Source: Rhodanobacter sp. B04 (lineage in GTDB: Bacteria; Pseudomonadota; Gammaproteobacteria; Xanthomonadales; Rhodanobacteraceae). From it: a DNA stretch of 64,000 bases. A program made the translations under genes and the position numbers. How positions within the stretch are numbered: the stretch's first letter is position 1; each line of letters starts with the position of its first letter. This document shows positions 56,072 to 60,924 of this stretch, in pieces. A model generated the notes under the pieces. The model was not told the DNA's origin. It searched no databases and saw only the letters and a list, made by a program, of their open reading frames with translations. The DNA lies in the NCBI RefSeq assembly GCF_002001125.1, contig NZ_MUNV01000006.1, forward strand, positions 186,001 to 250,000, given 5' to 3'.

Positions 56072-58741
56072 TTACTCGCGAGGAGGTGTGATGGAGCCAT
56101 CGTCTGCTGTCGCCGCATCGGCATGCGCATGCCGGTGGTGCTCGGCGTCGACATGTCGTTGATGCAGTTCCGCAGCGGAGGCGTCTTCGGCCGGCTGGAC
56201 GATATCGTGCGAACCGGTGCCAGTGACGCCAGCCTCGTTCGCCGCCGCCTCCTTTTCGCCGCCGGGAGTGATCTTGAGGATCGAATGACGCACTTCGCGC
56301 GACAGGATCACCCTGGCGTCGCGCACCATGACTTCCAGTGCGCCGTCGTAGTCGAGCTTGCCGCCCTCGTCGGTCCACACCACGCGGCGTTCGCGCAACT
56401 TCTGGATGAAGCCGCGGAACAGCGCCTTGTCGAAGAACTCCGGCGCCGACAGTTCGTTGAGCAGGCTCAGTCGCTGCGCCGTCAGCGTGCAGGCGTTTTC
56501 CAGCTCGGCGCCGGTCATCGTGTGCGGGCCGTTCTTGGCCAACGCGGCGATGGTGATGTAATAGCGCTCGAACGCCTGGATCAGGCTGCGTGCGATCACC
56601 TTGAGCTGGAACGCGCTGTCGTCCTGGCCCGGTGCACGTTCCAGCACACGGCCGTCGCCGGTGGATTCGAGCAGGCCACGGCGCACGAAGAGGTCGATCG
56701 TCGCCTGCAGCTGCACGCCGAAGCCATCCTCGTCCCAGGGCAGGAACAGCTCGCCCTGGATGAACGGGTAGATGATCCGGCCCAGCCGCAGCACCGAGGC
56801 ACGCGACATGCGCCGGTTGTTGAGGAAACAGCAGGCCACCCATGCGGCGGTCGCGGTGAGGTGCAGCACGTTGTTGCGGAAGTAGCTGAGCAGCACCGCC
56901 TGTTCGTCGTCGGTGACCAGCACGTCGCCGAGCGGATGCTGCACGCGGCGGATCCAGCCCATCTGTTCGCCGTAGGCGATGATCCCGGACGGGTTCATCG
57001 GGGTCAGCGTGACGCGATCGGAATACGGCAGTTCTTCCAGCAGGGTCTTGCTCAGTTCGAGCTGGGCGAGCAGGTCGCTTTCGGCCATCGCGTGCTTGGG
57101 CGTGGCGAGCAGGGCGAGCGCCAGCAGGTTGATCGGATTGACGTCGGCGGCGCGGTTGATGTTGACCTGGATCCGCTCGGCGAGCTGATCGACCACACCG
57201 TTGAGCCACTCCGGCTTCGCATCCGGGTCGGCACTGGTCGCGCGCCAGTCGGCGCTGGCGGCTTCCAGCAGCGGGGTCAGCTCGATCGGCTCGCCGAAGT
57301 TCAGTGCCACATGGCCATAACGCTGGCGCAGCACCTTCAACCCGCGCAGCAGGCCGAGCAGGGATTCCTTTTCCTTCGGCTTGCCGCTGAGTTCGCCGAT
57401 GTAGCTCTTGCCCTCCATCAGCTTCTCGTAGCCGATGTATACCGGCTGGAACAGCACCGGCCGGCGCGGCGCGCGCAGGAAGGCGCGCACGGTCATCGAC
57501 AGCAGGCCGCCGCGCGGCGCCAGCAGGCGACCGGTGCGCGAGCGGGTGCCCTCGGTGAAGTATTCGATCGGCACGCCGCGGTCGATCAGCTGCGCCATGT
57601 ATTCCTTGAACACCACCGAGTACAGCGGATTGCCGGTGAAGCTGCGGCGCATGAAGAACGCGCCGCCGCGGCGCAGGATCGGCCCGATTCCCGGCAGGTT
57701 GAGGTTCACCCCGGCGGCGATATGCGGCACCACCACGCCGGAGACGTGCAGCTGGTAGCTCATCAGCAGGTAGTCGGCGTGGCTGCGATGGCTGGGCACG
57801 TAGACCACCTCGTAGCCGGGCGCCGCGGCGCGGGCCTTGTCGAAGTGGTGCATGGCGATGCCGTCGTACAGCTTGTTCCAGAAATTCGACAGCAGGAACG
57901 ACACCGAACGCACCACCGGATGCGAGTAGTCGGCGGCGATTTCCATCATCAATTTGTGCGCCTTGCGCCAGGCCTTGGCGTGGCTGATCTTTTCCTTGGC
58001 GGCGCTGGCGGCGATCGCGGCGCGCACCGGTTCGGCATTCAGCACGGCATCGACCACGGTGCGCCGGTGCGACAGGTCCGGACCGATCACCGCGGCGCGG
58101 ATGCGGTGGAAGTGGGTGCGCAGCACCCGTGCGAGCTTGCGCGTGAAGCGTTCCGGCGCGAGCTCGCCGGATTCGGCCAGCACGCTGCGCAGGGATACCG
58201 GTGCGGAGAAGTGCACCACGGTGTCGCGACCGTTCAGCAGCAAGGCCAGCAGCCGGCGGAAGCGGCCGACCATGACCCAGTTTTCCGAGAACAGCACGCG
58301 GAACCAGCCGCTGTCACGGCTGGGCGCACGGCCGACGTAGATCGATACCGGCACGATCTGGATGTCGCGATCCGGCATCCCTTCCAGCGAGCGCACCAGC
58401 TGGCGCAGCGGCTCGTTCGGCGCGCGCTTGCGGTTGCGGCCGAAGATCCAGCCATCGCGCCGGGCCAGCGCAAACACCGAGCGCCGGCGGCGGGTGCCGG
58501 CCAGCGCCTGCATCGGGCTGGGCAGGCCGGCTTCGCGGCAGGCGCGCTGCAGGATCAGCGCGTCGGAGAACCCGTCGCGCTCGATCACATAGCAGACCGG
58601 CACCCCGGCTTGCAGCAAGGCGGCCGGCTCGGCGGGGTCGCGGCGGATGCGCACCCACGGCTGCAACAGCTGCCCGGCCAGGTTGAACCACCAGGGCGCG
58701 CGCTGGCGGGGAGTGGAATCGGCGGTGTGGATATTCTGCAT
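56072..58741 (-). CDS. plsB: Glycerol-3-phosphate 1-O-acyltransferase
   Basis: 889 residues, longer than the 807 of E. coli. The acyltransferase block is complete: VPSHRSHADYLLMSY (HX4D), GAFFMRRSFTGNPLYS, EYFTEGTRSRTGRLL and VLFQPVYIGYEKLMEG. It makes lysophosphatidate from acyl-ACP/CoA at the inner membrane. The extra length is mostly a C-terminal tail of about 60 residues, including the His-rich LHQRHVDAEHHRHAHADA, not seen in the standard enzyme. Confidence 0.95.
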   Translation of the reverse strand: MQNIHTADSTPRQRAPWWFNLAGQLLQPWVRIRRDPAEPAALLQAGVPVCYVIERDGFSDALILQRACREAGLPSPMQALAGTRRRRSVFALARRDGWIFGRNRKRAPNEPLRQLVRSLEGMPDRDIQIVPVSIYVGRAPSRDSGWFRVLFSENWVMVGRFRRLLALLLNGRDTVVHFSAPVSLRSVLAESGELAPERFTRKLARVLRTHFHRIRAAVIGPDLSHRRTVVDAVLNAEPVRAAIAASAAKEKISHAKAWRKAHKLMMEIAADYSHPVVRSVSFLLSNFWNKLYDGIAMHHFDKARAAAPGYEVVYVPSHRSHADYLLMSYQLHVSGVVVPHIAAGVNLNLPGIGPILRRGGAFFMRRSFTGNPLYSVVFKEYMAQLIDRGVPIEYFTEGTRSRTGRLLAPRGGLLSMTVRAFLRAPRRPVLFQPVYIGYEKLMEGKSYIGELSGKPKEKESLLGLLRGLKVLRQRYGHVALNFGEPIELTPLLEAASADWRATSADPDAKPEWLNGVVDQLAERIQVNINRAADVNPINLLALALLATPKHAMAESDLLAQLELSKTLLEELPYSDRVTLTPMNPSGIIAYGEQMGWIRRVQHPLGDVLVTDDEQAVLLSYFRNNVLHLTATAAWVACCFLNNRRMSRASVLRLGRIIYPFIQGELFLPWDEDGFGVQLQATIDLFVRRGLLESTGDGRVLERAPGQDDSAFQLKVIARSLIQAFERYYITIAALAKNGPHTMTGAELENACTLTAQRLSLLNELSAPEFFDKALFRGFIQKLRERRVVWTDEGGKLDYDGALEVMVRDARVILSREVRHSILKITPGGEKEAAANEAGVTGTGSHDIVQPAEDASAAELHQRHVDAEHHRHAHADAATADDGSITPPRE

Positions 58742-58766: not shown

Positions 58767-59705
58767 TTAGTCTTTCGTTGCCACGCTGCCGGCAGCGGCT
58801 GGCACGCCGGTGCTGCGGGCCGACGGTGGCTGCTCGCTCAATTGCTGGTGCGACTTGCGCACATTGTTGAGCATGTCCTCGCTGTACCAGCGGCCATCCT
58901 GCTGCACCAGGGTCGATTCGGTCGACAGCGGCTTGCCGAGCAGGGTGTAATCGATCTTCACCACGGCATGGCCGTTGCTGTTGGAGACCGGGGTGAACTT
59001 GACCGAATTCAGCGTGTCGTCCAGCGACAACCCATAGATCGCCAGCAGCTGCTTGGCGCCGTTGAAACCGGTCGAGTATTTCGCCATGGCGGTATCGAAA
59101 TCCATCGTGCGCAGCTGATCCGGGTTTTTCAGATCCAGCTGGCGTGCCGTGGTCACCGCCACGCCGACCGCCTGCTTTGCCTTGGCCTGGTCGAACCACG
59201 GCGTCTGTTGCGCCCACGGTCCGAGCACGTCGAGCACGCTGGCGGTCTGCGCTTTCTGCGCTTCGGTGAGGCTCTTGTTCTGCGCGATGCCGTTTTTCAC
59301 AAAGGCTTCGCCGACGCTGATCAGTACCGGCAACTGGTCCTTGTACTGCTGTTGCATCATGCTCAGTTTCGGCTGCAATTCGGCATACAGCTTGTTCTCG
59401 GCGTCGGGTCCGGTGAGCTCCTGCATGGTCTCGCTGAACTTGGCACGATCCTCGGCGGTGATCGGCTGCGGATCCTGTTCGTGGCGGCTCCAGTCGGCGC
59501 GCAGGTTGGCGTAGTCGGCCGGCGGCAAGGCGTGTTTCCACAGGCCGTTGAGGTCGCCGGCCTTGAGCAGGTCGATCGAACCTTGCAGGGCCGACTCCGG
59601 CGTGCTGCCACCCGGCTGCGAGGCGTCGTCCTTGCCGTGACAGGCACTCAGCAGCAGTGCGGCGAACAGCGGCAACAGAGCGTAGCGAAGGGTAGGCAGA
59701 CGCAT
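58767..59705 (-). CDS. Unrecognised lipoprotein
   Basis: 312 residues. The signal ends in lipobox LLLSAC (about residue 21), so it is a lipoprotein. The mature part is Ala/Gln/Leu-rich, largely helical, and ends in a DUF-like beta segment (HAVVKIDYTLLGKPLSTEST, VQQDGRWYSEDML) of the kind seen in DUF4878/NTF2-like lipoproteins. No enzyme motif is visible. ATG 59705 is chosen by the signal peptide. It lies 25 bases upstream of plsB and could be cotranscribed with it. Confidence 0.75.
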   Translation of the reverse strand: MRLPTLRYALLPLFAALLLSACHGKDDASQPGGSTPESALQGSIDLLKAGDLNGLWKHALPPADYANLRADWSRHEQDPQPITAEDRAKFSETMQELTGPDAENKLYAELQPKLSMMQQQYKDQLPVLISVGEAFVKNGIAQNKSLTEAQKAQTASVLDVLGPWAQQTPWFDQAKAKQAVGVAVTTARQLDLKNPDQLRTMDFDTAMAKYSTGFNGAKQLLAIYGLSLDDTLNSVKFTPVSNSNGHAVVKIDYTLLGKPLSTESTLVQQDGRWYSEDMLNNVRKSHQQLSEQPPSARSTGVPAAAGSVATKD

Positions 59706-59835
59706 GGAAGATTCTCGCGGAAAGGGCAGGGGGCGGGAGCATGCCTGGGCGGCACGGAGAACGGGCAGGGTAAGTGGCTCGGCAGCATGGAACAAGGGTC
59801 GCGCCGCAGGATTTCACGACGAGCAGCCATGCCGC

Positions 59836-59872
59836 AAAAAAGAAAACCCCGCGGGCGCAGGGCCTCACGGGG
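59836..59872 (-). terminator. Rho-independent terminator (minus strand)
   Basis: On the minus strand CCCCG and CGGGG close a hairpin with an inner GGC/GCC stem, followed by TTTTCTTTTTT (59846-59836). It ends transcripts that come from the right, either the e(P4) gene or a short RNA started at the FNR box. Confidence 0.7.
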
Positions 59873-59962
59873 AAATCCGGCAGAGCCGGAAGGGAAATGG
59901 CCTTGCCCGCAAAATGAGCTGGTCAGCAGGGTCGGCGGGTGAATATTACTTGTCCGTTAAAG
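59836..59962 (-). ncRNA. Candidate small RNA under FNR/Anr control
   Basis: A transcript starting near 59962 (41 bases from the centre of the FNR box) and ending at the terminator would be about 125 bases. It holds the hairpin TCCGGC-TCT-GCCGGA (59877-59891), then the terminator hairpin and U-run, and several unpaired C-rich stretches, as in Hfq-type sRNAs. It has no convincing ORF. The -10 would be around TATTGC (59968-59973), which is a poor match. The rest of 59706-59835 shows nothing clear. Confidence 0.45.
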
Positions 59963-59996
59963 CTAAGGCAATACTTTTGTTAGTTTCTTTAAATTA

Positions 59997-60010
59997 TTGA
60001 TTTATATCAA
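59997..60010. promoter_or_regulatory. Perfect FNR/Anr binding site
   Basis: TTGAT-TTAT-ATCAA matches the FNR/Anr consensus (TTGAT-N4-ATCAA) at all ten defined positions. It sits in an AT-rich patch (about 59940-60018) in otherwise GC-rich DNA, nine bases after the e(P4) stop. Confidence 0.7.
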
Positions 60011-60018
60011 TATTTACT

Positions 60019-60924
60019 TCACTGATAATGCAGCGCATCGATCTTCTGCTGGCGCCGCTGCTGCAGTGGGGCACTCCAGTCGTTGTTGAACAGCGCCGGC
60101 TCCCAGGCGCCATAAGTGGGATTCGGCAACACGAACCAGCGCGTGCCAACCCACGCCAGATAATCGGCGACAGCCTTGCGGCGGCCGGCGTCGTTATTGC
60201 CGAGCACGTCGACAAAGTCGCCAACCTGATCGCCGAACTGCATCAGCACCCGGTAATGCCGGGCGACCAGCTGGCGCCGGCAACCCTTTTCGGTGCCGGC
60301 CTGCTCGCAACCGTCGACCACGGTGCCGAGGCCGAGAAAGGCGTCCGGTCCGTTCACCGGAAACCCTGCTTTGCGCAGGTTGGCCACGGTGGCCTCATCC
60401 AGATCCTTAGCACGGTTGGAGATATAGATCACGGCGACGCCATGCCTGGCGGCGAACTGGGTGAACTCGACCGCACCGGGCAGGGCGCGCGCACGTTCCT
60501 CCTTGCACCAGGCCGCCCAGTCGGCCTCGTTGAACTCGCCGCCGCTTTTCACCAGGCGTGCCTGGTACGGCGAGTTGTCCAGCACGGTTTCGTCGATGTC
60601 GAGAATGACGGCGGGCTTGAGGCCCTTCAGCGGCGTCGTCCGATCCGCCTTGCCCAAGGCATCCCATTGCTTGTCATGCAGGGCGGTGAGCAGGCGCGAC
60701 TGGGCGTCGCGGTAAGTCTGCAGATAGATCAGGTCATGCTCGATGGCCGTCTGGCTCCAGGCCACCGCATTCAGATTGTCGTTGGCAGCGACATGCGTGA
60801 CGACGCTCGACGTGGCTGACGGGGCCGACGGTGCGGATGCCGTGGCGACGGGATGCGATGGCGCCGTGGCGCAACCGGCAAGCAGGCCGAACATGGCCAG
60901 GGTCAGCGGTAAACGAACAGACAT
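60019..60924 (-). CDS. e(P4)-type acid phosphatase / 5'-nucleotidase lipoprotein
   Basis: 301 residues. Lipobox LLAGC with Cys18; HAD motif I DIDETVLDNS (D109, D111), motif II YISNRAKD, and the late acidic GNNDAGRRKA. Enzymes of this class remove phosphate from nucleotides at the outer membrane surface, allowing nucleoside uptake. AGGA before ATG 60924. Divergent from the AI-2E transporter gene. Confidence 0.92.
   Translation of the reverse strand: MSVRLPLTLAMFGLLAGCATAPSHPVATASAPSAPSATSSVVTHVAANDNLNAVAWSQTAIEHDLIYLQTYRDAQSRLLTALHDKQWDALGKADRTTPLKGLKPAVILDIDETVLDNSPYQARLVKSGGEFNEADWAAWCKEERARALPGAVEFTQFAARHGVAVIYISNRAKDLDEATVANLRKAGFPVNGPDAFLGLGTVVDGCEQAGTEKGCRRQLVARHYRVLMQFGDQVGDFVDVLGNNDAGRRKAVADYLAWVGTRWFVLPNPTYGAWEPALFNNDWSAPLQQRRQQKIDALHYQ

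Follow-up and report, generated by a model that had tools for sequence, protein, structure and literature searches.

Identification of a Candidate Small RNA Gene Upstream of plsB

The minus strand of the 64-kb stretch of DNA analysed here (the window) probably carries a stand-alone small RNA (sRNA) gene of about 101 nt, which is located upstream of plsB, is conserved in Rhodanobacteraceae, and would be expressed with the assistance of IHF and act by pairing through AUUUCCCUU. Comparison among related loci showed a putative sigma70-type promoter of its own and an IHF-type site, together with three predicted hairpins, a C/U-rich and mostly unpaired stretch, and a U-tailed terminator. The source genome groups with Rhodanobacter, a genus of the family Rhodanobacteraceae in the order Lysobacterales. 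Read 5' to 3' on the minus strand, the segment 59836-60010 consists of an AT-rich patch past the e(P4) stop codon containing an FNR dyad, a promoter pair, a C-rich two-hairpin stretch and a terminator. The putative transcript, as judged from family-wide conservation and a covariance model match, spans 59836..59936 (minus strand, about 101 nt), with its start placed 7 nt past the -10 hexamer and its end within the T-run. The median RNA length in 83 unique loci was 103 nt, counted from one base earlier than this start.

The preliminary description had proposed a small RNA gene at this place, and conservation, promoter, terminator and a structure with two-sided pair changes all support that proposal. 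A 261-bp query was matched by blastn in 23 of the 24 same-genus relatives, bearing out the conservation of 59836-60010, and in none of the 16 genomes of other families. Within the family, 113 of 197 genomes (our own included) and 19 of 26 genera gave matches at E ≤ 0.001, a count that takes in a few weak non-syntenic matches, e.g., L084 and L085. The 83 unique loci were obtained after leaving out repeats (L025-L030, L032, L035 and L049) and the two loci that are not syntenic (L084 and L085), and after merging L089 with the identical L059, which reduced 84 loci to 83; alignment A1 comprises 50 of them and alignment A2 comprises 32. Genome G220 contains two copies, L058 and L059, on different contigs, and the contig of L059 may be contamination, since L089, from genome G090, has an identical slice.

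A covariance model (R1) built from 32 sequences gave one match in the window, with 117.1 bits at 59836-59943, as compared with 11.5 bits for the next best. In named genomes, 86 stretches came out of a pattern scan; apart from two outliers, they belong to Rhodanobacter, Dyella, Frateuria, Luteibacter, Fulvimonas, Pinirhizobacter and unnamed bins. Eighty of these 86 named loci, which had been picked by the exact seed pattern, were scored with the model, and 78 reached at least 58 bits. The promoter match was absent in three of the 86, namely L127, L136 and L168, the last of which is an incomplete slice. Of the outliers of the scan, L127 (Rossellomorea) scored 21.7 bits and L136 (Mycobacterium) had no model match; both look like chance and were set aside. 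The plasmid collection yielded one partial match, which covered 11% of the query and lay inside e(P4).

An open reading frame of at least 20 aa occurred in 6 of the 83 transcripts, and no frame was conserved. As would be expected of a trans-acting sRNA, the locus thus combines a putative promoter and a terminator with a U-run with the lack of a conserved ORF and with a predicted structure that appears conserved in a model-fitted alignment and weakly so in A2. No Rfam family was matched at the gathering score in the window or in the loci of 20 relatives; sub-threshold matches (rnk leader, anti-hemB, SorX and RsmY) scored far below gathering and were rejected. The titles and abstract beginnings of open-licence papers on Rhodanobacter small RNAs describe no RNA of this kind, those on Dyella and Luteibacter together with sRNA concern other subjects alone, and none was found that combines an sRNA with plsB, intergenic regions and Xanthomonas. 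The family described here adds a structured candidate sRNA to genera for which the literature searches showed no such RNA, and its conserved features offer targets for mutation.

The upstream neighbor, already taken for an e(P4) gene in the preliminary description, encodes an acid phosphatase of the e(P4)/class B type (60019..60924, minus strand; PF03767) and is matched in 81 of the 83 loci. Downstream on the same strand lie a lipoprotein-like gene (58767..59705; no Pfam family, lipobox recognized by eye), matched in 77 of the 83 loci, and the usual downstream neighbor plsB, encoding glycerol-3-phosphate acyltransferase (56072..58741; PF19277 and PF01553), matched in 79 of the 83. The lipoprotein-like gene is less conserved than plsB (median identity 62% versus 85%), and had no match in L015, L016, L017, L060, L071 and L077 among the 83 loci, some slices of which are incomplete.

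Predicted Structure and Candidate Pairing Region of the RNA

The minimum free energy and centroid structures concur, and consist of hairpin 1 closed by GCC/GGC, CAUUUCCCUU, hairpin 2, AUUUC and the terminator. Hairpin 1 (CCUGC/GCGGG; 59906..59930, minus strand, as are all features of the RNA) is closed by the pairing of GCC (59936-59934) with GGC (59902-59900). The near-invariant stretch GGCCAUUUCCCUU at 59890..59902, the AUUUCC part of which is mostly unpaired, is proposed as the target-pairing seed. In the predicted fold it is followed by hairpin 2, CCGGC-UCU-GCCGG (59877..59889), which corresponds to CCGGCUCUGCCGG. The Rho-independent terminator (59836..59872), found by both scan and alignment, has a 10-bp stem with one bulge (59872-59847), followed by TTTTCTTTTTT (59846-59836). 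The minus-strand hairpin with a T-run that had been reported is thus present at 59836-59872 and conserved in the alignment, and the reported hairpin and C-rich open stretches between dyad and terminator were likewise seen in the predicted fold. The mean unpaired probability of the 9-nt part of the seed was 0.85, as compared with 0.47 for the whole RNA; the seed was more unpaired than the whole RNA in 80 of the 83 loci, and its unpaired probability was low in L019, L020 and L082.

The fold of a 127-nt stretch was not unusually stable in comparison with shuffles (z -0.87); the evidence is comparative. Covariation, named in the preliminary description as a check on the RNA, was found in A4, an alignment of 54 sequences fitted to the covariance model: 16 of 23 pairs showed two-sided changes and 96.3% of cells were paired, whereas none of 500 shuffles scored as high and slid versions gave 23-50%. 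In the terminator, 8 of 10 pairs were changed on both sides in the 54 sequences, and the stem was paired in 97.0% of cells. The same check was weak on the unfitted and more uniform A2, in which 2 of 23 pairs covaried and 26 of 500 shuffles scored as high. RNAalifold supported 4 of 19 pairs on A1. Hairpin 2 gives no covariation evidence, because it hardly varies.

These features suggest that the RNA is most likely an IHF-assisted, trans-acting sRNA that pairs with purine-rich ribosome-binding sites. The sRNA, probably together with Hfq, would pair with such sites through AUUUCCCUU, and pairing would block the translation of several mRNAs; an Hfq gene is encoded in the genome. An exact 11-nt complement of the seed was matched in 23 of 26 genus genomes (35 places listed), and the 30 loci inspected in these 26 genomes revealed no convincing target: 17 were the RNA gene itself and 12 were located elsewhere, while L230 was flagged as the RNA gene by a loose rule but looks different. 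L217 and L218, from the close relatives G007 and G001, share the same complement site, whose coding status is ambiguous; in L229 and L245, each found in G004 only, the complement lies just before or at ATG.

Promoter and IHF-Type Site

The promoter is best placed at a conserved pair, TTGCCT-17-TAATAT, which lies nearer to the RNA and is absent from the list of a simple scan. In the putative -35 element TTGCCT (59966..59971, minus strand), TTG is present in all 83 unique loci and reaches 2.00 bits at each position in the 60 rows left by an 80% identity filter; in the putative -10 element TAATAT (59943..59948, minus strand), separated from it by 17 bp, the first T, the A and the last T are present in 83 of 83. 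The T and A in TTGCNTNA, after the TTGC of the -35 element, are likewise invariant in the 60 filtered rows. In genus g25 the -35 region is often palindromic, e.g., ATTGCTTTAGCAAT in L075, L077, L086 and L095, and this palindrome is perhaps an operator.

Upstream of this pair, centered at about -60, the motif scan and the locus alignment located an IHF-type core, AATCAATAATTTA (59990..60002, minus strand), a perfect match to the IHF consensus WATCAANNNNTTR (PMC5963220). It is the sole perfect match to this consensus in the 64 kb (shuffle mean 0.33). The conserved upstream block reads AAATCAATNACTTA in the 60 rows left after removing sequences more than 80% alike, and its information is highest in the columns CA (1.79 and 2.00 bits) and TTR (1.53, 2.00 and 1.05 bits). 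In the core, the second T is found in all 83 loci and CA in 81 of them. When 60 nt were scanned, a perfect core was found in 23 of 83 loci, in contrast to a shuffle mean of 0.7, and a core with at most one mismatch in 69, in contrast to 11.7; counted at fixed columns, 22 loci had all nine core letters and 41 had eight. Among the named loci the core was perfect in 26 of 83 and within one mismatch in 69 of 83, as raw counts from sets whose species overlap. The genome gave four HU/IHF-family matches, at family level with paralogues pooled. From the consensus match we infer that IHF may bind at the core. Bound there, IHF would bend the upstream DNA, which is AT-rich, toward the RNA polymerase, and would set the expression of the sRNA by growth phase rather than by oxygen.

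Related Loci in Other Families of the Order

In family f8 the covariance model gave matches with E values from 7.5e-4 to 2.0e-9, and single weak ones occurred in f2, f4, f9 and f10. Twenty weak-match loci were fetched, seven of which belong to f8 (L197-L202 and L216). A plsB gene, 44-48% identical, came after the RNA within about 200 bases in six of the seven f8 loci and was about 2 kb off in L202; no e(P4) match turned up in any of the seven stretches. The f8 core reads ACCGATCCTCTCCGGCTCYGCCGG; the f8 copies have in common a C/U-rich core that differs from the present one, and their promoter is mostly of the TTGACA type. In L205 (f10) plsB comes directly after the RNA, and L214 (f4) has downstream, on the strand of the RNA, a match to the lipoprotein (30%) and then plsB (62%). 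Common descent of the plsB-linked RNA beyond Rhodanobacteraceae is therefore likely, as judged from these matches and their neighbors. L203 (f9), L204 and L215 (f2) had none of e(P4), AI-2E and plsB nearby; they are probably chance terminators and were set aside.

The FNR-Like Dyad and Alternative Explanations

The segment had been read in the preliminary description as possibly anaerobically induced and FNR-driven. The perfect dyad TTGAT-TTAT-ATCAA on which this reading was based is indeed present at 59997..60010, with no second perfect copy in the window; dyads with at most one mismatch number three in the 64 kb, where the shuffle mean is 0.72 and 5 of 100 shuffles reach three. Its right half, ATCAA, sits inside the IHF-type core, and its left half is not conserved, being random at the key G (0.00 bits over 46 letters). 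On the aligned letters, the FNR dyad amounts to the IHF-type core joined to a left half that is missing from most relatives. At the aligned offset, the left-half letters matched TTGAT in five, four, three, two, one and zero places in 7, 12, 18, 29, 16 and 1 loci, respectively (raw counts). An exact left half, TTGAT, occurs at the aligned position in 7 of the 83 loci. In four of these (L042, L051, L057 and L060) the e(P4) stop codon falls inside it, in L068 it lies within the last e(P4) codons before the stop, and in L001 and L016 there is no overlap with the gene. The case is a caution for the reading of motifs: the conserved half of a perfect FNR box is accounted for by an IHF-type core, and in several relatives the other half coincides with the end of the preceding gene.

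Perfect dyads were found in 6 of the 83 loci in a 60-nt scan, as compared with 0.0 in shuffles: at the aligned place in L001, L016, L042 and L068, and about 10 nt further upstream in L037 and L043. Same-genus genomes account for 29 of the loci, and just two of these have one, L001 (from the source genome) and L016. Dyads within one mismatch occurred in 12 of 83 loci versus 0.6 in shuffles, and within two in 30 versus 6.0, an excess partly due to the sharing of ATCAA. The center of the dyad, 60003.5, lies at about -67.5 from the start at 59936, which was placed from the conserved promoter hexamers. Of 23 E. coli FNR-activated promoters, 19 have the site at -41.5 ± 4 and one has it at -60.5 (PMC3688515).

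The source genome encodes an ANR/FNR-like protein (L182, 955-1749), recognized by eye from its Cys-rich N-terminus and an adjoining hemN-like frame. Two further CRP-family genes of this genome were noted (L183 and L184), and a CRP/Clp site was rejected, with 0 of 83 loci within one mismatch. When the ANR-like protein was compared with 68 genomes, ten (G015, G042, G051, G057, G059, G060, G077, G130, G213 and G220) had no match or one weaker than E 1e-6. These ANR-less genomes contribute nine loci to the alignment: L005, L044, L058, L062, L071, L076, L087 and L088 keep 8-9 of the nine core letters, and L059 keeps 8 of 9, although it is identical to another genome's locus and may be contamination. 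The ANR-like match at G070:C1:2697572-2698339 contains two TAG codons in the aligned stretch, yet the promoter of that genome (L068) has a perfect dyad.

FNR as a family-wide control was rejected on the basis of the column counts, the way the left half runs into the e(P4) gene end, and the ANR-less genomes. It is quite improbable that in the source strain ANR at 59997-60010 switches the RNA on at low oxygen, perhaps on top of IHF: the window's only perfect dyad, the ANR-like protein and the excess of perfect and near-perfect dyads speak for such a switch, whereas the left half lacks conservation, perfect dyads are confined to two of the same-genus loci, exact left halves mostly overlap the e(P4) end, the center lies far from -41.5, and ANR-less genomes keep the rest of the promoter. 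The claim of anaerobic, FNR-driven induction was therefore not upheld, on the grounds of the mostly unconserved dyad, its center, and the retention of the element without ANR. ANR may nevertheless be used in a few strains, because the six perfect dyads exceed shuffles, and its binding in the source strain is possible, considering the excess of near-perfect dyads and the ANR-like gene.

The main alternative to a trans-acting sRNA is a role in cis on plsB. In all 77 loci (of 83) that have both genes, e(P4) and plsB flank the RNA and share its strand, and the f8, f10 and f4 loci keep the same order with plsB while e(P4) was not found in those stretches; such an arrangement would suit a cis-acting leader or attenuator of the lipoprotein and plsB genes, with a conditional terminator whose read-through feeds plsB. 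We consider this unlikely, since a separate promoter-like pair, TTGTTC-17-TACCCT (59767..59795, minus strand), precedes the lipoprotein and plsB genes in 20 of 24 genus loci (a raw count), the terminator stem is almost always paired across the 54 sequences, no alternative pairing was noticed by eye, and plsB is about 2 kb away in L202. That the element is only the e(P4) 3' UTR and its terminator, the promoter-like pair being coincidental, is highly improbable. The e(P4) mRNA should indeed share the terminator of the RNA, since the scan listed no terminator-like site ahead of the RNA past the e(P4) stop codon. Against this reading stand the invariance of the -35 TTG, of TA...T in the -10 and of the second T of the core in all 83 loci, with the core CA in 81, and the presence of the RNA without an adjoining e(P4) match in L024, L071 and the f8, f10 and f4 loci.

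We prefer the hypothesis of an IHF-assisted, trans-acting sRNA. A broader version of it, which we regard as speculative and rather unlikely, is that of an ancient plsB-linked sRNA of Lysobacterales, with the AUUUCCCUU seed in Rhodanobacteraceae and a related core beside plsB in f8, f10 and f4; its IHF-gated promoter would tie phospholipid synthesis to growth phase, and the RNA would act on distant mRNAs as well as on the plsB locus.

Comparison with Known Systems

The promoters of sRNAs of the csrB/rsmZ type are IHF-dependent, and in this they resemble the combination of an IHF-type core with an sRNA promoter proposed here. These sRNAs are activated by GacA/UvrY and titrate CsrA/RsmA via GGA motifs. 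They have GGA repeats, whereas none were noticed in the present sRNA.

FnrS of E. coli belongs to the same size class as the sRNA of about 101 nt described here, and shares with it an own promoter and an FNR-like dyad upstream. Its neighbor genes are different, and no Rfam family matches the present RNA, although Rfam presumably holds an FnrS family. The FNR site of FnrS is at -42.5 (PMC3688515), in contrast to the mostly unconserved dyad at about -67.5 here. The layout of an FNR-driven RNA such as FnrS, to which the segment had been likened, thus differs in both site position and dyad conservation.

Xanthomonas, the host of the sRNA sX13, belongs to the same order as Rhodanobacter. sX13 is a C-rich sRNA of 115 nt that is always located downstream of polA (PMC3771888). 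The two RNAs are of similar size, and sX13 likewise has three stems and C-rich motifs, whose targets are G-rich motifs close to translation starts (PMC3771888). They differ in position, the present sRNA being located beside e(P4) and plsB. The C-rich motifs of sX13 are in apical loops (PMC3771888), whereas those of the present sRNA are, in the predicted fold, single-stranded links between hairpins.
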